From NCBI GenBank assembly GCA_017461605.1, contig JAFTXN010000003.1, forward strand, positions 124,001 through 188,000: DNA of 64,000 nucleotides, read 5' to 3'. Source of the stretch: Bacteroidaceae bacterium. Lineage in GTDB: Bacteria > Bacteroidota > Bacteroidia > Bacteroidales > Bacteroidaceae. The notes under the pieces are model-generated. The model was not told where the DNA came from. It searched no databases and saw only the letters and a list, made by a program, of their open reading frames with translations. Made by a program: the position numbers and the translations under genes. Position 1 is the stretch's first letter; each line of letters opens with the position of its first letter. Shown piece by piece: positions 5,681-58,212 of the stretch.

Positions 5681-5746
5681 TCTGCAAGGCGTTTAGAAAA
5701 TTCTGCAGTGCTTGCAGATTTTTTTGCAGTGCTTGCAGATTTTTGA
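5681..5746. repeat. Family A repeat, tandem-core form
   Basis: A CTGCAAGGCGTTTAGAAAA arm is followed by two tandem copies of the core GCAGTGCTTGCAGATTTTT. Unlike the perfect palindromes at 8848 and 58146, the right-hand GCAAGGCG arm is missing. It sits between the divergent phosphodiesterase and nrdD promoters, so it cannot serve as a terminator of either gene. Confidence 0.75.
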
Positions 5747-8847: not shown

Positions 8848-8905
8848 GCAAGGCGTTTAGAAATTTCTGCAAGCACTGCAGAAATTTCTAAACGCCTTGC
8901 AGATT
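8848..8905. repeat. Family A perfect palindrome after nrdG
   Basis: A perfect 24-bp inverted repeat (8848-8871 and 8877-8900) has the 5-nt loop AGCAC. Arms read GCAAGGCGTTTAGAAATTTC and continue to TGCA. It is followed by a short T-rich tract, so it can also end the nrdDG transcript. The loop is the reverse complement of that of the copy at 58146, meaning the two copies lie in opposite orientation. Confidence 0.9.
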
Positions 8906-16456: not shown

Positions 16457-17449
16457 TTAGAGATTCGGGTTGATGGAGTTCCATTCTGAAATAGCGGGAA
16501 CGATGCCGAGTGTAACGAGTTCGTCGCGCATCTTGCAGAGGTGCTCGTAAGAAGCATCAAGCTTTGCAATTTCGTCAGCAGTACCCACGGGCATCTTGTA
16601 CGAACAACCGTTCTTGTCGAGCACGGTGTCCATGGCCATCATGATGTGGTTGTACTTTTCGTTGCTCACGTAGGTTCCTGCGGGGAAGCGGAAGGGAGCG
16701 CCACCCATCACTGAGCGAATCATTTCCACGGAGAGGTAAGAAGGGCTCTGGAATGAAGAGCGACCGCGAAGCTTGATGATAGCAGCACCACCCTGCGTTA
16801 CGTCCTTCTTCATCTGTTCCCATTCTTCAGCAGGGAATTCAGCCGTACCGATAAGGTCGTTGAGGGGCTTGCCGGCCACCTTCACAGCGCTACCAAACAC
16901 TGCCATCTGTTCGCCGTGGCCACCATAAGTAGCACAACCGGTGATTTCGCTCTGCATTACGCCGAACTTCTTGGCGAGAGCGCTCTGAAGACGTGTGGTG
17001 TCGAGGCCTGCGAGTGTGGTAACCTGGCCGGGCTTCAAGCCGGAGTAGAGCAGGGTTACGAGACCGGTAAGGTCAGCAGGATTGAAGATGATTACAACGT
17101 GCTTCACATCGGGGCAGTAAGCCTTGATGTTCTTGCCGAGTTCTTCAGCAATCTTGCAGTTGCCTGCGAGCAGGTCTTCACGGGTCATACCCTCCTTGCG
17201 GGGAGCGCCACCTGAAGAGATGATGTACTTAGCATTGGTGAATGCTTCCTTCACATCGGTAGTAGCAGTGATGTTCACGTTGTCAAAACCACTCTGACGC
17301 ATCTCTTCTGCTACGCCTTCGGGTGAGAACACGTCGAAGAGGCAGATGTTAGAAGTGAGACCCATCATGAGGGCCGACTGAACCATGTTGGAGCCGATCA
17401 TACCGGCTGCGCCAACAATCACAAGTTTTTCGTCTGTTAAGAATTCCAT
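16457..17449 (-). CDS. mdh: Malate dehydrogenase
   Basis: The 330-residue NAD-dependent enzyme of the lactate/malate dehydrogenase family interconverts malate and oxaloacetate, a step in the reductive branch to succinate in Bacteroidota. It has the nucleotide-binding motif GAAGMIGSN at the N terminus, the substrate loop GGAPRKEGMTR, a GLDTTRLQ segment and the catalytic-histidine region YGGHGEQ. The open frame runs 41 codons further upstream, but the extra part lies between the promoter and MEFLTDEKLV and is not family-like, so the start at 17449 is preferred. It is transcribed alone from a promoter embedded in a family B repeat. Confidence 0.92.
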   Translation of the reverse strand: MEFLTDEKLVIVGAAGMIGSNMVQSALMMGLTSNICLFDVFSPEGVAEEMRQSGFDNVNITATTDVKEAFTNAKYIISSGGAPRKEGMTREDLLAGNCKIAEELGKNIKAYCPDVKHVVIIFNPADLTGLVTLLYSGLKPGQVTTLAGLDTTRLQSALAKKFGVMQSEITGCATYGGHGEQMAVFGSAVKVAGKPLNDLIGTAEFPAEEWEQMKKDVTQGGAAIIKLRGRSSFQSPSYLSVEMIRSVMGGAPFRFPAGTYVSNEKYNHIMMAMDTVLDKNGCSYKMPVGTADEIAKLDASYEHLCKMRDELVTLGIVPAISEWNSINPNL

Positions 17450-17558
17450 ATCGCGATATATTATAAGTGTGTGCTTATGATTGCGTATCATATCCGCATT
17501 ACGGGCTATGCCGACCGAAAAGCCACGAAGTGCTTGCCCACAATCCGCATTCCTACGG

Positions 17559-17589
17559 CAAAGATAATGCAAGGCGAGAGAAGAACAAA
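17559..17589 (-). promoter_or_regulatory. mdh promoter carried by a family B repeat
   Basis: On the minus strand TTTG (17589-17586), a 19-bp spacer containing CTCGCCTTGCA, and TATCTTTG (17566-17559) form a consensus promoter. The -33 box and spacer are repeat sequence shared with the metF and purH promoters. Confidence 0.8.
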
Positions 17590-17795
17590 GCGAAAACTTT
17601 GTTTTCTGCTTTTTATTCCGAGCCGCAGCTTATCTTGGGCGAAGCCAAAGTAATGCAAGGCGAGCGGAATACAAAACAAAAAGTCTTTTTTGTTCTTATT
17701 CCCGAGCCGCAGCTTATCTTGGGCGAAGCCAAAGTCACGCAAGGCGAACGGAATACTCTTATTCCCGAGCCGCAGCCTCTACTTTGCGGAATGAA
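17559..17795 (-). repeat. Family B tandem repeat array (2.6 units) upstream of mdh
   Basis: Units begin (in plus-strand reading) at CAAGGCGAG 17570 and 17656 and at CAAGGCGAA 17740, giving spacings of 86 and 84 bp; the third unit is short (about 55 bp). Each unit contains an AT-rich hairpin part (ACAAAGCGAAAACTTTGT in unit 1), CCGAGCCGCAGC and TTGGGCGAAGCC. The mdh-proximal end becomes a promoter; inner units have CTCGCCTTGCATTACTTTGG at the corresponding place, one base short of a -7 box. Confidence 0.85.
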
Positions 17796-17870
17796 AATCG
17801 CAAAAACCTTTTTCAAAATTACAGAATAGCTCACAAATCCTATCTTATCACCGGCAAATGAGCAAAAAAT

Positions 17871-17901
17871 TTGGTCTAAGAAAATTTTAACGCTACATTT
17901 G
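17871..17901 (+). promoter_or_regulatory. Promoter of the M24B aminopeptidase gene
   Basis: TTGG (17871-17874), a 19-bp spacer and TACATTTG (17894-17901) lie 24 nt before the start codon. The layout is identical to that of the nrdD promoter. Confidence 0.75.
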
Positions 17902-17925
17902 TCCGAAAACACACACAGCAGAAAA

Positions 17926-19737
17926 ATGGAGAACAAGGAGAAAACCAGCAAATTGCTTCCCGTACGTATGTGGATGAGCCTGCAAGGTCTGGAGGCGCTG
18001 ATTGTCTTTACATCCGACCCGCACAACGGAGAGTATATTCCTGATTATTGGAAACTGCGAGAGTACTTGTGTAATTTCACTGGCTCGGCAGGAACTCTGG
18101 TCATCACGCACGAAGAAGCGTTGCTCTGGACTGATTCGCGCTACTACATTCAGGCGGCGGAGCAACTCGATGCATCTCTTTTCACACTGATGAAGGATGG
18201 TTCTCCGGACACTCCGAGCATTGGCGAATGGCTCACCGACCATCTGAACGAGGATGCATCGGTGGCTGTCATCGGAGAGCAGGTTTCCGTAGCCGAACTC
18301 GAAGCTATCAAGCAGGAGGCACAGCATCTGGACTGGCAGTGTCACGACGATCCCTTCAATGAGCTGTGGCCCGAACGCCCACACCTGCCCACCGGCTTGC
18401 TAAGCCTGCAAAGCCCCGAGCACACCGAGATGTCGGCCGCCGAAAAGATAAAAATCGTCTTCGATGAAGTGCAAAGACAGACAGAGGCCAACTACTTTCT
18501 GATCAACGATCTGGCTGAAATTGCATGGTTGCTCAATCTGCGCGGTAACGACGTGGAATTCAACCCTGTGTTTCTGTCTTATCTGCTTATTGGCATTGAT
18601 GAAGACATCCTCTTTGTCGACAAGCAGAAACTCACCCCTGAAGTTTCGCAATATCTCACCGAACAGCGCATCAGCGTTACTGCTTATTCAAACCTGGAAC
18701 CCATCATTACTCAACTCTCGCGTCACGACACACTGGTGGCCCTCCCACCATCGGCCAACTGCGCCACCGTCGCCATGATGCGAGCCGAAGGAGTTCGGCA
18801 TGTTTTCCTGAAATCATCACCGGTCGAACTGATGAAGGCCGTGAAGTGTGTGGCCGAAATCGCCGGCATGCGCGAAGCCATGCTGCAAGACGGTGTGGCC
18901 ATGGTGCAATTCCTGCGATGGCTGGAAGCAGCGATGAAGACAGAAGAAGTGACTGAGATAAAGGCCGAAAAGGCACTCACACAATTCCGCTCCCAACGTC
19001 CCGGTTTCGAGCAACTGAGCTTTGCCACCATCGCAGCCTACGGAGCACACGGTGCCATCGTTCACTACGAAGCCGAACCGCACACCGACATCCCGTTGCG
19101 CCCCGAGAGTTTGTTCCTCCTCGACTCCGGCGGACAATACACCGGAGGCACCACCGACATCACTCGCACACTTGCACTCGGCACACTGACGGACGAAGAG
19201 CGCCGCGCCTACACACTCGTATTGAAAGGGCACATCGCATTGTCACGATGCCGTTTCCCCGAAGGCTCCACCGGACTCCAACTGGACCTCGCCGCACGTT
19301 ATGCCATGTGGCAACAGGGCTACGACTTCGGACACGGCACCGGTCACGGAGTGGGAGCGCATCTCTGCGTGCACGAAGGACCGATGCAAATCCGTAAGAA
19401 CCCACGGGCCTGCACCCTCGTTCCCTTGGCCGAAGGCATGGTCATCACGAACGAACCCGGTATCTACGTCGAAGGAAAATTTGGCGTGCGCATCGAGAAC
19501 ACCCTGTTGGTGCGCAAAAGCATCGAGACACCGTTCGGCCGCTTCCTCGAGTTCGAACCGCTCACGCTCTGCCCCATCGACACAAAACCCATCGTGCTTT
19601 CGTGGCTCACCGACGACGAACGAGAATGGCTCAACGCCTATCACGCACGAGTGCGACAGACACTCATACCGATGCTCGACGACGAGGCCGACCGCCAATG
19701 GCTCACCGAAGCCACACGCGAACTGCCAACCGTCTGA
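17926..19737 (+). CDS. pepP: Xaa-Pro aminopeptidase (M24B)
   Basis: The 603-residue cytoplasmic metallopeptidase removes N-terminal residues preceding proline. It has two N-terminal creatinase-like domains followed by the pita-bread catalytic domain. Metal ligands are visible as the aspartates in LLDSGGQYTGGTTDITRT, the histidine in GHGTGHGVG, the glutamate in NEPGIYVEG and the glutamate in IENTLLV. The three-domain length (about 600) matches the eukaryotic APP1-like form common in Bacteroidota rather than the 440-residue E. coli PepP. The open frame could begin 9 codons earlier inside the -7 box; ATG 17926 is the plausible start. A terminator follows directly. Confidence 0.9.
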   Translation: MENKEKTSKLLPVRMWMSLQGLEALIVFTSDPHNGEYIPDYWKLREYLCNFTGSAGTLVITHEEALLWTDSRYYIQAAEQLDASLFTLMKDGSPDTPSIGEWLTDHLNEDASVAVIGEQVSVAELEAIKQEAQHLDWQCHDDPFNELWPERPHLPTGLLSLQSPEHTEMSAAEKIKIVFDEVQRQTEANYFLINDLAEIAWLLNLRGNDVEFNPVFLSYLLIGIDEDILFVDKQKLTPEVSQYLTEQRISVTAYSNLEPIITQLSRHDTLVALPPSANCATVAMMRAEGVRHVFLKSSPVELMKAVKCVAEIAGMREAMLQDGVAMVQFLRWLEAAMKTEEVTEIKAEKALTQFRSQRPGFEQLSFATIAAYGAHGAIVHYEAEPHTDIPLRPESLFLLDSGGQYTGGTTDITRTLALGTLTDEERRAYTLVLKGHIALSRCRFPEGSTGLQLDLAARYAMWQQGYDFGHGTGHGVGAHLCVHEGPMQIRKNPRACTLVPLAEGMVITNEPGIYVEGKFGVRIENTLLVRKSIETPFGRFLEFEPLTLCPIDTKPIVLSWLTDDEREWLNAYHARVRQTLIPMLDDEADRQWLTEATRELPTV

Positions 19738-19761
19738 CACAAAGCACTTTCCCATTTACAC

Positions 19762-19797
19762 ACTGCCGTACCATTTTCCGTACGGCAGTTTTATTAT
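19762..19797 (+). terminator. Intrinsic terminator of the aminopeptidase gene
   Basis: ACTGCCGTA (19762-19770) pairs with TACGGCAGT (19781-19789), followed by TTTATTATTTC. It starts 25 nt after the stop codon. Confidence 0.8.
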
Positions 19798-19802
19798 TTC
19801 TA

Positions 19803-19862
19803 CACGCCTTGCAGAATTTTCTGCAGTGCTTTCTGAAAATTCTGCAGTGCTTGCAGAATTTC
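19803..19862. repeat. Family A repeat, tandem-core form
   Basis: CACGCCTTGCAGAATTTTCTGCAGTGC is followed by TTCTGAAAATTCTGCAGTGCTTGCAGAATTT. These are two tandem cores with one CGCCTTGC arm. It lies between a terminator and the family B array, so here it has no obvious gene-end role. Confidence 0.75.
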
Positions 19863-19876
19863 TCACATCGCACCTC

Positions 19877-20131
19877 TCTCGCCTTGCACGCTTTGGCTGC
19901 GCCCAAGGTAGGCTGCGGCTCGGAATAAAAACAAGTGCAAATGAACGAAAAGGGGGCTTGTACCCTTTTCTGAATGCAGCCTTGTTTATGTAAAAGCAGA
20001 AAACAAAGTTTTCGCTTTGTTCTTCACTCGCCTTGCACACTTTGGCTGCGCCCAAGGTAGGCTGCGGCTCGGAATAAAAAGCAGAAAACAAAGTTTTCGC
20101 TTTGTTCTTCACTCGCCTTGCACTACCTTTG
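19877..20131 (+). repeat. Family B tandem repeat array upstream of metF
   Basis: Units start at CTCGCCTTGCAC 19877, 20027 and 20112. The 20027-20111 unit is 85 bp; the first is longer because it holds an extra segment of about 65 bp after CGGAATAAAA. Each unit includes TTTGGCTGCGCCCAAGGTAG, GCTGCGGCTCGG and GCAGAAAACAAAGTTTTCGC. The array is inverted relative to those at mdh and purH on the map but has the same orientation relative to its downstream gene, and ends in the metF promoter. Confidence 0.88.
20101..20131 (+). promoter_or_regulatory. metF promoter carried by a family B repeat
   Basis: TTTG (20101-20104), a 19-bp spacer (TTCTTCACTCGCCTTGCAC) and TACCTTTG (20124-20131) match the consensus exactly. 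The metF start codon is 53 nt further on. Confidence 0.82.
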
Positions 20132-20184
20132 CATAACTTAGGAATGGAGGGCAAAAAGCGCACCTCGTTCGTCTGAGCATCCAC

Positions 20185-21135
20185 ATGAGAATAACAGATT
20201 TAATCAACCAAAACAGCGGAACGGCCTTTTCGTTCGAAGTGTTGCCGCCCCTCAAGGGCACCGGTATCGACCGCCTGAAGCGCACCATCGATACACTGCG
20301 AGAGTTCGATCCGAAGTACATCAATATCACCACTCACCGCTCCGAGTACGTTTACCACGAACTCGAAGACGGTCTGCTGCAACGCACACGTCTGCGCCGC
20401 CGCCCCGGCACCGTGGCTGTGGCAGCCGCCATTCAGCGCGAGTACGGCATACCCGTCGTGCCCCACATCCTGTGCAGCGGTTTCACACGTGAGGAGACCG
20501 AATACGTACTGCTCGATCTGCAGTTCCTCGGTATCGAAAACCTGCTGGTGCTGCGTGGCGACAAGGCACGCGACGAGAACGCTTTTCGTCCGACTCCCGA
20601 CGGCTACGCCCACACCACCGAACTGCAGGAACAGATCAACGCCTTCAACGAAGGGCGATTTGTCGACGGCAGCCCCATTGCCGTACCCGGCAACTTCAGC
20701 TACGGAGTGGCTTGCTACCCTGAGAAACACGAAGAAGCGCCCAACCTGTCGACCGACCTGCAATGGTTCAAGCGCAAGGTGGAGTTGGGAGCGGAATATG
20801 GTGTAACCCAGCTTTTCTACGACAACGCAGCCTATTTCCGCTTCGTGGAGCAGGCACGCGCCATCGGCATCCACGTGCCTATCATCCCCGGCATCAAGCC
20901 CCTGTCACGCTTGTCGCAACTCACAGCCGTGCCACGCATCTTCCATTGCGACCTGCCCGACGACCTGGTGCGCGAAGCCATGAAGTGCCACACCGACGCC
21001 GACATTGCAGCACTCGGCGTGGAATGGGCCGAAATGCAATGCCGCGAACTCATGGCACACGGCGTACCCTCCATCCACTTCTACACCACCTCCGCCGCCC
21101 AAAGCATACGCGAGGTGGCACGACGCATCTATTGA
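20185..21135 (+). CDS. metF: Methylenetetrahydrofolate reductase
   Basis: The 316-residue flavoenzyme reduces 5,10-methylene-THF to 5-methyl-THF, the methyl donor for methionine synthesis. It is a single TIM-barrel domain of bacterial length. The catalytic glutamate is E18 in FSFEVLPP. FAD-binding features include the NITTH and LRGDKARDE segments, and FSYGVACYPEKH and LFYDNAAYF fit the family. It opens a rightward operon with holB, ricT and gldH; only 28 nt separate it from holB. Its promoter comes from a family B repeat. Confidence 0.95.
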   Translation: MRITDLINQNSGTAFSFEVLPPLKGTGIDRLKRTIDTLREFDPKYINITTHRSEYVYHELEDGLLQRTRLRRRPGTVAVAAAIQREYGIPVVPHILCSGFTREETEYVLLDLQFLGIENLLVLRGDKARDENAFRPTPDGYAHTTELQEQINAFNEGRFVDGSPIAVPGNFSYGVACYPEKHEEAPNLSTDLQWFKRKVELGAEYGVTQLFYDNAAYFRFVEQARAIGIHVPIIPGIKPLSRLSQLTAVPRIFHCDLPDDLVREAMKCHTDADIAALGVEWAEMQCRELMAHGVPSIHFYTTSAAQSIREVARRIY

Positions 21136-28865: not shown

Positions 28866-29008
28866 ACGGCCTGCAGAAAATCGGGCAGTGCTTGCAGAAA
28901 ATTCTGCAAGGCGAGCGCAAAACTAAACAAAGCCGCAAGATTTATTTCGTTCTGCCGAGCCGCATACGAATTTGGTGAAACAAAATTCTGCAGTGCTCGC
29001 AGAAAGTT
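28866..29008. repeat. Composite of family A cores and a decayed family B unit
   Basis: Family A pieces (GGCCTGCAGAAAATCGGGCAGTGCTTGCAGAAAATTCTGC, 28868-28907, in parts) run directly into CAAGGCGAGCGC (28908-28919). That begins a family B-like stretch with CCGAGCCGCA and TTTGGTGAAAC, then another family A core ATTCTGCAGTGCTCGCAGAA (28985-29004). No functional -7 box remains. The shared GCAAGGCG end suggests that the two families are related or target each other. Confidence 0.6.
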
Positions 29009-41478: not shown

Positions 41479-41538
41479 CAGAAGGCCTGCAGAAATTTCT
41501 GCAGTGCTTGCAAAAAAATCTGCAGTGCTTGCAAAAAA
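41479..41538. repeat. Family A repeat, tandem-core form inside the surface locus
   Basis: GAAGGCCTGCAGAAATTTCTGCAGTGC is followed by two copies of the core TGCAGTGCTTGCAAAAAA. Both GCAAGGCG arms are lost. It lies in the 151-bp gap between the giant gene and the FN3 gene. Confidence 0.7.
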
Positions 41539-57314: not shown

Positions 57315-57914
57315 TTAGGCCTGTTTCTCAAACCAATTGTGGATAGCGGTATCATAGTGGCTGGACACACCGAAAGCCTGCGTAGCAAACCAGCGACGTT
57401 CGGCCAACTCGGTCTGTGCACCATTCTTCTTCACGATATCGAGCAAAGCGCCATATTCGGCTTTCGACGGAACAATCACCACATCGTTGAAGTTCTTGGC
57501 ACCGGCACGAATCAACGAAATACCACCTATGTCAATCTTCTCAATGATATCGGCATCCGAAGCGCCGCTTGCCACTGTCTGCTCAAAAGGATAGAGATCC
57601 ACAATCACGAGGTCGATTTCCGGAATTTCGTACTGCGCCATCTGCTCGCGATCGCCCTCCAGCTCACGACGACCGAGAATACCACCGAACACCTTGGGAT
57701 GCAGCGTCTTCACACGTCCGCCAAGGATAGAGGGATAAGTGGTTACATCCTCCACCTTGCGGCAGGGATAACCTAAGGATTCGATAAACTGTTGTGTTCC
57801 GCCGGTGGAGAGAAATTCCACACCTTGCGCATGCAACTCGGCCAAGAGTTCATCCAAGCCATCTTTATGAAAGACAGACACCAAAGCTGTCTTGATCTTC
57901 TTTGTTCCGGACAT
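57315..57914 (-). CDS. purH: IMP cyclohydrolase, stand-alone domain (PurH N-terminal half)
   Basis: The 199-residue protein corresponds only to the MGS-like IMP cyclohydrolase domain of bifunctional PurH, which closes FAICAR to IMP. Conserved parts are SVFHKDGL, STGGTQQFIE, GGRVKTLHPKVFGGIL, IDLVIVDLYPFE, IDIGGISLIRAGAKNF and a C-terminal ASHYDTAIHNWF-like SSHYDTAIHNWF. The usual AICAR transformylase domain (about 300 residues) is absent; the frame ends in a clean stop and mreB follows directly, so there is no sign of a frameshift remnant. The transformylase step must be encoded elsewhere. Its promoter lies in a family B repeat. Confidence 0.9.
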   Translation of the reverse strand: MSGTKKIKTALVSVFHKDGLDELLAELHAQGVEFLSTGGTQQFIESLGYPCRKVEDVTTYPSILGGRVKTLHPKVFGGILGRRELEGDREQMAQYEIPEIDLVIVDLYPFEQTVASGASDADIIEKIDIGGISLIRAGAKNFNDVVIVPSKAEYGALLDIVKKNGAQTELAERRWFATQAFGVSSHYDTAIHNWFEKQA

Positions 57915-57944: not shown

Positions 57945-57975
57945 CAAAGTTAGTGCAAGGCGAGCGGAATACAAA
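57945..57975 (-). promoter_or_regulatory. purH-mreB promoter carried by a family B repeat
   Basis: On the minus strand TTTG (57975-57972), a 19-bp spacer ending CTCGCCTTGCAC, and TAACTTTG (57952-57945) match the consensus. The start codon of purH is 30 nt further on. It probably serves the whole purH-mreBCD-mrdA-rodA group. Confidence 0.8.
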
Positions 57976-58075
57976 ACAAAATGCAAAGCTTTTGTTTTTA
58001 TTCCCGAGCCGTAGCCTAACTTGGGCGAAGCCAGAGTGGTGCAAGGCGAGAGAAGTGCAAAGTGAAAAACGAGTT
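57945..58075 (-). repeat. Family B repeat, about 1.4 units upstream of purH
   Basis: In plus-strand reading CAAGGCGAG occurs at 57956 and 58042, 86 bp apart. Between them are ACAAAACAAAATGCAAAGC, CCGAGCCGTAGC and TTGGGCGAAGCC, as in the other arrays. The second unit decays after about 30 bp. The gene-proximal end is the purH promoter. Confidence 0.85.
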
Positions 58076-58145: not shown

Positions 58146-58212
58146 AAAATCTACACGGCGTTTAGGAATTTCTGCAGTGCTTGCAGAAATTCCTAAACGC
58201 CGTGTAGATTTT
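58146..58212. repeat. Family A perfect 31-bp palindrome
   Basis: The arms 58146-58176 and 58182-58212 are perfectly complementary with the loop GTGCT. Arms begin AAAATCTACACGGCGTTTAGG; the GCAAGGCG of other copies is here ACACGGCG on both arms, so the two arms changed together. It lies between the purH promoter and the end of the next leftward gene. Confidence 0.92.

Follow-up and report, generated by a model that had tools for sequence, protein, structure and literature searches.

What kind of repeat places the same predicted promoter in front of mdh, metF and purH, three genes within one stretch of a Bacteroidaceae genome, and is it kept there, or even spread, for the sake of that promoter? 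The stretch, referred to as the window, comprises 64,000 nucleotides (C10:124001-188000 of the source genome G000, a 2.06-Mb assembly that is 81% complete); C-prefixed coordinates denote contigs of G000, L numbers individual loci and G numbers genomes. We found that the three arrays belong to a dispersed family of hairpin repeats, and its sequence strongly supports that this family carries a promoter. In the reading that we consider probable, with appreciable doubt as to the whole, the terminal unit of an array would act as a housekeeping promoter, the inner units would stand in helical register with it and the hairpin interiors would be exchanged as palindromes. The repeat family, its location, its promoter consensus, the palindromic covariation, the replacement of interiors and the spacing of the units could be established directly.

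In the window, CTCGCCTTGCANTANNTTTG occurs exactly at 17559-17578 (minus strand), 20112-20131 (plus strand) and 57945-57964 (minus strand), and with up to three mismatches it has seven matches, compared with 0.10 expected from 100 shuffles. The gene-proximal unit carries TTTG exactly 19 bp 5' of TAnnTTTG in all three arrays (3/3), and it is spaced from its neighbour by 86 bp (mdh), 85 bp (metF) and 86 bp (purH). At the -7 position, the neighbouring inner units of these arrays show TACTTTGG, ACTTTGGC and CACTCTGG, respectively. The initial annotation had described tandem units of 84–86 bp of which the proximal one ends in TTTG-N19-TAnnTTTG and the inner ones lack a proper -7 box; both statements are confirmed at mdh, metF and purH, the latter for the neighbouring inner units.

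The mdh array (17559..17790, minus strand) consists of the terminal unit, a single complete inner unit and a third, partial distal unit that extends to about 17790, a far end placed by eye. Its terminal hairpin unit (17559..17639) folds as single-stranded DNA with -13.5 kcal/mol (z -2.70). The -7 box TATCTTTG (17559..17566), which follows the consensus given in the part of PMC7366714 available to us, forms the outer foot of the 3' arm and lies in the outer stem; the -33 TTTG is found at 17586..17589, with the 19-bp spacer. The gene served (16457..17449, minus strand) encodes a protein of the lactate/malate dehydrogenase family of 330 amino acids (aa), with PF00056 and PF02866 above cut-off. 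At metF, the array (19878..20131, plus strand) has a distal anchor at 19878, an inner unit at 20027 and the terminal unit at 20112, the most distal anchor being 149 bp from the next. Its -7 box TACCTTTG (20124..20131) and -33 TTTG (20101..20104, spacer 19 bp) belong to a terminal hairpin unit at 20053..20131 (CAAGGTAGGC ... CACTACCTTTG; the fold of 20051-20132 has -14.8 kcal/mol, z -2.59), and metF itself follows at 20185..21135 on the plus strand (TIGR00676 fadh2, above cut-off). The purH array (57945..58050, minus strand) comprises a terminal unit plus the anchor of a single inner unit, with a -7 box TAACTTTG (57945..57952), a -33 TTTG at 57972..57975 (spacer 19 bp) and a terminal hairpin unit at 57945..58026 (-16.8 kcal/mol, z -3.84). 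The claim that purH has a third array of the same layout thus holds for the layout, while the gene has to be qualified: the open reading frame served (57315..57914, minus strand) has 199 aa and matches the N-terminal part of PurH, aligning to positions 3-196 of a 510-position model under that model's cut-off. The second PurH domain does not lie within this frame.

Across G000, CTCGCCTTGCANTANNTTTG at up to three mismatches gave 169 matches, compared with 13 for the reversed pattern, and 50 of the places listed were exact copies. Since the first list of array ends had been built with the -7 box, we searched for the body of the unit alone, which yielded 92 units in 58 arrays (2 for the reversed control). 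An exact TAnnTTTG end was present in 53 of these 58 arrays, 52 of them found by script and one corrected by hand, and one more ended in TGTCTTTG, giving 54; the true ends at C2:25769 and C9:253002 are TAACTTTG and TGTCTTTG. Another array ends in TAACTTAG, a few bases 5' of an ATG, and the remaining three are copies that lack a promoter end and are joined to a different repeat. One of these three lies in the window (28905..28961, minus strand, fused to GCAGAATTTTCTGCAAGCACTGC). Array ends in G000 were first called at 75 places, some of which were chance anchors; the later list holds 72 ends with a T[AG]nnTTTG box. In sigma-ABfr promoters, the -33 TTTG lies about 19–21 bp upstream of the -7 box. 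A TTTG spacer of 19 or 20 was found at 58 of the 72 G000 ends and at 53 of 72 ends in the sister genome G301, which carries L104, has 105 family matches and shows 86% DNA identity with G000 over the longest aligned stretch and 78–85% over the next two. The last unit also has an exact -7 box in 20/20 stretches from five other families, hand-picked from the matches listed.

The arrays point at genes. An ATG frame of at least 100 aa (or open at the end of the stretch) begins within 130 nt past the array end at 65 of the 72 G000 ends, and one further end (L066) has a tRNA-Arg gene downstream; on the opposite strand, reading away from the far end, the same was seen for 20/72, and for 37% of 1440 random positions. 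The proposal that genome-wide copies might show no preference for gene starts, which had been set beforehand as the refuting test, therefore fails. When a start codon within 130 nt was chosen for each of the 72 ends, the median distance was 31 nt, and 8 frames were shorter than 100 aa. Among 20 proteins examined by NCBIfam, those above cut-off included topoisomerase I (topA), YchF, the proline, alanine and arginine tRNA ligases (proS, alaS, argS), RecA, DNA primase (dnaG), SbcD, MetF, TsaB, riboflavin synthase (ribE) and ThiD; PurH and PhoH stayed below it and two had no match at E 1e-15. A similar promoter sequence thus precedes non-homologous genes. The gene upstream of the array is on the same strand in 39/72 cases and on the opposite strand in 31/72, according to a simple frame caller. 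We also noticed three genes that begin with MKLRILL(S/C)LFAFFSTFGVWE (C4:15316, C9:160915, C9:325071), each with a common leader and a hairpin promoter repeat, apparently a gene family duplicated along with its promoter. SbcD is a subunit of a nuclease that cuts long DNA hairpins, and sbcD (L092, C10:49797) is itself served by a hairpin array.

The most unusual property of the units, absent from the initial annotation, is that they are covarying palindromes. A full unit reads, from 5' to 3', CAAGnTAGGCnGCGGCTCGG, a variable interior, CTCGCCTTGCAC and TAnCTTTG. It forms an inverted repeat that spans the entire promoter, with a palindrome of about 75–80 bp, a stem of about 27 pairs and CAAGnTAG / CTAnCTTTG as terminal inverted repeats. 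The interiors, mostly 27, 37–40 or 42–43 bases long, come in few forms, for example AAGTGCTCAAATAAATTTGGCACTT or GAGAAAAAGC...GCTTTGTTCTC, and are imperfect palindromes themselves. Interior halves from the same unit had a mean stem score of 9.6 in 127 G000 units and 9.3 in 111 sister units, compared with 6.0 and 5.9 for halves from different units and 5.4 and 5.5 for shuffled halves. Three other G000 units folded as single-stranded DNA gave z values of -1.91 to -3.04, and in the folds of six units the -7 foot lay within the outer stem.

The pairing extends into the -7 box itself. The forms TATC, TAAC and TACC are mostly paired with the 5' feet GATAG, GTTAG and GGTAG, and the variable -7 base is Watson-Crick paired with the foot of its own unit in 142 of 155 readable units (shuffle mean 58.8, maximum 82). 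For array-end units alone, where no downstream unit is available as alternative partner, the counts are 53/57 in G000 and 51/53 in the sister (57 and 53 of the respective 72 being readable), with a shuffle maximum of 34 each. Further inside, GGC/GCC covaries with GGT/ACC and once with ACC/GGT (562 of 612 letters paired, shuffle maximum 521); TAGGC goes with CTTGCA in 125 and TAGGA with CTTTCA in 28 of 172 units of G000 and the sister, and A-T pairing of the latter type was seen in 29/34 cases in other families. The stem of a single fold was also counted in the 30 of 103 array-end units that are 74-78 bases long. Cells were paired in 90.5% compared with 81.3% after shuffling, double-changed cells numbered 78 compared with 24.5, and the covariation score was 0.232 compared with 0.084. 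Only about 10 of the 797 cells were G-U; their rarity favours a palindrome kept at the DNA level over one kept in RNA.

The predicted promoter points in one direction only. The palindrome implies a second -7 box on the reverse strand, which was intact in 0/233 units (97, 81, 35 and 20 in four sets), the 5' foot typically being one A short of it. The forward -7 box, scored by script mostly in stretches fetched with the -7 pattern, was intact in 57/64 terminal and 2/33 inner units of G000 and in 54/55 terminal and 1/26 inner units of the sister; the script gave 17/20 terminal and 3/15 inner units for other families, and 14/15 terminal units were intact in other genomes including congeners. Read by eye, the pre-terminal -7 box was broken in 16 of 18 units of other families, and in various ways (TAATTTGG, TATCTTTC, TATCTTTT, TTCTTTGA and others); at L330, one of the 20 stretches, a degenerate unit lies beyond the unit with the exact box. 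The inner -7 boxes are intact at L274, L275 and L276 of the same genus and at L267 of another genus, so the arrays there would be tandem promoters.

The distance between neighbouring units is restricted as well. With strict anchors (81 adjacent pairs in G000 and 63 in the sister), units are mostly 84–86 or 73–74 bp apart and never 76–82 bp; at 10.5 bp per turn, 84 and 73.5 bp correspond to 8 and 7 turns. Interior and linker length are inversely correlated (r = -0.71 in G000, -0.74 in the sister). Spacings of 83–87 bp make up 89% and 86%, respectively, compared with 48% and 41% when linkers are shuffled (maximum over 5000 shuffles 63% and 60%), and 10 pairs from other genomes including congeners fall at 82–87 bp. 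Such spacing near whole helical turns suggests a protein that binds the duplex.

As the initial annotation had proposed, we compared orthologous loci of relatives, and arrays were present at some and absent at others. For 43 of the 72 G000 ends, a homologue was found in the sister stretches fetched, and 41 of these 43 have an array at the same place, a proportion that gives no estimate of loss since the stretches were chosen for having arrays. Unit number, as a simple anchor count, differs in 32 of the 41 shared arrays. Both interiors were readable in 34 of the 41 pairs; their identity was below 0.62 in 16, 0.63–0.68 in 3, 0.74–0.86 in 6 and at least 0.92 in 9. Thus, 16 of 34 readable orthologous promoters have a different hairpin interior in the sister species. 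The anchors are 97% identical both in these 16 pairs and in the other 18, and the leaders 78% and 83%, respectively. In the 16 divergent pairs the stem score is 9.3 within the own unit and 5.3 across species, and both arms must therefore change together, because each unit pairs with itself but not with the arm of the other species. Donors exist: 75 of 127 G000 units have, at some other locus, an interior with at least 90% identity to their own. This comparison of two related species suggests that a hairpin is exchanged as a complete unit.

At single genes, presence of the array is patchy. The five best mdh matches come from cattle and water buffalo metagenome-assembled genomes labelled Bacteroidaceae or Prevotellaceae; among the 42 of 80 mdh loci examined upstream, only L104 has the array besides G000, and L105, whose protein is 98% identical, has none. 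For metF, 35 of 58 genomes of the genus matched (G000 included), and among the 27 readable of 28 examined loci the array was seen only in G000 and in one 86% relative, L283, which is probably the same genome as G301. In front of metF, L284 carries a plain promoter, TACCTTTGcata, at 39 nt from the ATG (53 nt in G000). Two further comparisons (L070/L244 and L066/L204) show an array-less relative with a -7 box near the matching place, the empty sites of L222/L091 and L234/L055 do not keep the -7 position, and the L220/L041 pair may be paralogous. At the few empty sites compared by eye, no target-site duplication was seen.

On a larger scale, the match count within the genus ranges from 0 to 122. 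At up to two mismatches, 149 of 301 genomes of the family have at least one match, and many have just one to three, matches that could be ordinary promoters. The body pattern matched 14 of 295 genomes across the order, in the same family and seven others (reversed control: 2 in G000 and 1 in one other genome), and the hairpin architecture recurs in other Bacteroidales families. In a sample of the phylum, 4 of 247 genomes matched, namely G000 and three of one other genus whose matches, longer and not palindromic, are probably due to chance; the reversed control gave 1 match in each of two genomes besides G000.

How could such arrays work and evolve? Promoter function is the best-supported part, as the boxes match the consensus quoted in the accessible part of PMC7366714, and from this we infer transcription from the -7 box. 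The gene-proximal unit would supply an ordinary Bacteroidota housekeeping promoter of the sigma-ABfr type, its 3' arm providing the -33 TTTG, the conserved block CTCGCCTTGCAC and the -7 TAnnTTTG as outer foot. The 5' arm (CAAGnTAGGCnGCGGCTCGG and interior) would be the complement, imperfect enough that no -7 box is found on the opposite strand. The upstream units, mostly with a broken -7 box and about 8 or 7 turns away in G000, the sister and other families, may act as double-stranded DNA that offers them on the same face to a protein, possibly RNA polymerase, a nucleoid protein or a dimeric binder. Over species time, loci would obtain whole palindromic interiors from one another, through recombination or gene conversion that uses the conserved outer arms of the dispersed copies as flanks. 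Gene conversion seems the simplest account, as interiors change at sites that are retained. Of the initial proposal that the element spreads, or is kept, for its promoter, the promoter part is strongly supported by sequence and spreading is borne out in part: presence and absence at orthologous genes, the range of matches within the genus and the interiors differing between sisters speak for it, but the analysis turned up neither an enzyme nor a target duplication nor a recent insertion. A wider claim, which we put forward only tentatively, is that these hairpins are a class of structured promoters found throughout Bacteroidales. The complete promoter would form one arm of a covarying palindrome, a dedicated protein would read modules stacked in helical register as an upstream control array, and modules would pass between genes as units, leaving dozens of housekeeping genes per genome with promoters from one interchangeable family.

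Several points weigh against the reading we prefer. Consensus and position are the basis for calling the promoter. The pattern used to fetch most G000 and sister stretches included the -7 box; only the body-only search of G000 and the other-family set are free of that bias, and the stretches of the latter were hand-picked. The rule of the broken inner box fails in some congeners, where 5/5 readable inner units have an intact -7. Looser anchors put 12 of 100 G000 spacings outside 73-75 and 83-87 bp, other families are less strict (22 pairs at 73-92 bp), and the spacing compensation is carried largely by few unit types. Because the units are related, the covariation counts are not independent events and shuffles overstate independence; further pair types were not above shuffles in the 30 array-end units (20 compared with 20.1). 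Finally, interior identity is continuous from 0.50 to 0.97 with no clean gap, and a donor was identified for no single replacement.

Other explanations must be set against the same data. Promoters might be ordinary and the repeat neutral, with palindromes kept by template switching during replication and arrays by slippage. Long palindromes are corrected by template switching, and unit number and interiors do vary as slippage and exchange would have it. However, simple correction would erase the asymmetry of the arms and the never-intact reverse -7 box, and neither the length-compensated spacing near 7 or 8 turns nor the same body in several families fits, which makes this account rather doubtful. 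We think it unlikely that the unit is a DNA-structure switch in which negative supercoiling extrudes a cruciform, hiding -33 and -7 boxes in its stems, so that activity follows supercoiling. The -7 foot in the outer stem of the six folded units, the excess of double-changed cells over G-U cells, which fits selection on DNA rather than RNA, and the presence of topA, recA and dnaG among the genes served would agree with it, but the stems have conserved mismatches and internal loops, the fold z is only moderate (-1.9 to -3.8) and helical phasing better fits a protein-bound duplex. A structured RNA in the 5' leader, or a terminator at the 3' end of the upstream gene, is very improbable: the inverted repeats are strong and the intact inner -7 boxes of some congeners could put hairpins into leaders, but the start site would fall 3' of the last hairpin, no T run follows by eye, the upstream neighbour lies on the same strand in 39/72 cases and on the opposite one in 31/72, and G-U pairs are rare. 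The mismatch census (G.T-type 14 and 13, A.C-type 33 and 40, T.C 36 and 31) did not clearly favour either strand, and Rfam gave no match at gathering score in the stretch searched, window 17000-20500.

The family could also be a mobile element, a hairpin resembling miniature inverted-repeat transposable elements (MITEs) or repetitive extragenic palindromic (REP) elements, moved by a transposase in trans that targets the -7 box; insertion would bring or rebuild a promoter, and the older -7 would end up inside the array. The exact end of the family at TAnnTTTG, its patchy occurrence in genus and family, the resident -7 boxes at L070/L244 and L066/L204, the TACCTTTGcata shared by metF and L284 and the variable unit number are what one would expect of it. 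Like MITEs, the units have terminal inverted repeats. RAYT transposases are associated with REP elements and REPINs. The only Y1_Tnp gene found in G000 (L260, C10:84498-84836), however, has no unit within about 1.5 kb, and Y1_Tnp is present in 12 of 20 genomes with no relation to how rich these are in the family: it is absent from G212, G089 and G148 and present in G043, G082, G114 and G302. The test for linkage or co-occurrence covered these 20 genomes and 8 loci. Together with the two empty sites that do not keep the -7 position, and with no target duplication seen by eye, this makes a mobile element improbable. A phage origin was rejected as well, the single exact viral-contig match (L103) having no hairpin; plasmid and phage record collections were not searched. 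Integron attC sites, which the GTTAGGC foot recalls, were rejected by reading the sequence against their definition: the orientation of the boxes is wrong, the base that follows G changes along with the -7 box, and cassettes are absent.

Two side observations concern other repeats. L260 is surrounded by repeats of a different type and looks like a RAYT accompanied by repeats of its own. Another dispersed palindrome, TCTGCAAGCACTGCAGA, which in some copies has CTACACGGCGTTTAG arms, occurs close to genes (window 5704-5744, 8859-8903, 19815-19870, 41498-41538 and 58150-58210; L262, L263) and is joined to the three hairpin-family copies that lack a promoter.

Promoters are usually regarded as evolving gene by gene. 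In this gut bacterium and a number of its relatives, dozens of everyday genes seem to be started from hairpin copies of one family. Topoisomerase I, RecA, primase, tRNA ligases and a tRNA are among the unrelated genes that apparently draw on a single promoter borne by the repeat; its parts would evolve together across sites, and this makes promoter spread and concerted evolution directly testable. The base-pairing constraint over most of the promoter and the spacing near whole turns predict a mechanism based on DNA structure or DNA binding in a major gut order. For annotators and strain engineers, such promoters would be repeats that may recombine.

No description of this element was recognised in the titles and abstract openings among the literature matches listed, which is weak evidence, with subscription papers and preprints outside that set. 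Among the closest parallels are the putative mobile promoters of Matus-Garcia (2012) and van Passel (2014), which are reportedly similar promoters before unrelated genes, patchy among relatives. That work is cited in the parts of PMC8049555 and PMC4596501 available to us. The hairpin promoters likewise precede unrelated genes in one genome and are patchy among relatives; unlike mobile promoters, they form the 3' arm of a covarying hairpin, stand in phased tandem arrays, occur in several families and have their interiors replaced at conserved sites. The BrickBuilt MITE of Porphyromonas gingivalis, as described in the accessible text of PMC4596501, is intergenic, with 23-nt tandem repeats between a leader and a tail, and has promoter activity with promoters in both directions; its authors also raise the idea of mobile promoters. 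Our family is, like it, an intergenic tandem repeat of Bacteroidota with a promoter, here predicted from sequence, but differs from what is described there in its palindrome of about 75–80 bp, its period of mostly 84–86 or 73–74 bp and its one-way promoter. REP elements and REPINs have stems of 5–13 bp and a terminal GTAG or CGTC tag, according to the portions of PMC3733652 and PMC8049555 at hand. They share with the hairpin family short dispersed palindromes, single or grouped, and families with compensated stem changes; in contrast, our units have a stem of about 27 pairs with the NTAG foot inside it, the -7 box makes up the foot and the repeat has no linked RAYT. The near-palindromic PM2 motif is linked in the available part of PMC7366714 to lowly expressed and oxidative-stress genes. 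The same source, as far as available, gives -33 TTTG / -7 TAnnTTTG as the sigma-ABfr promoter consensus; the boxes seen here are the same, with a spacing of 19–20 bp, and to this canonical promoter the hairpin family adds the conserved CTCGCCTTGCAC spacer and a complementary 5' arm.

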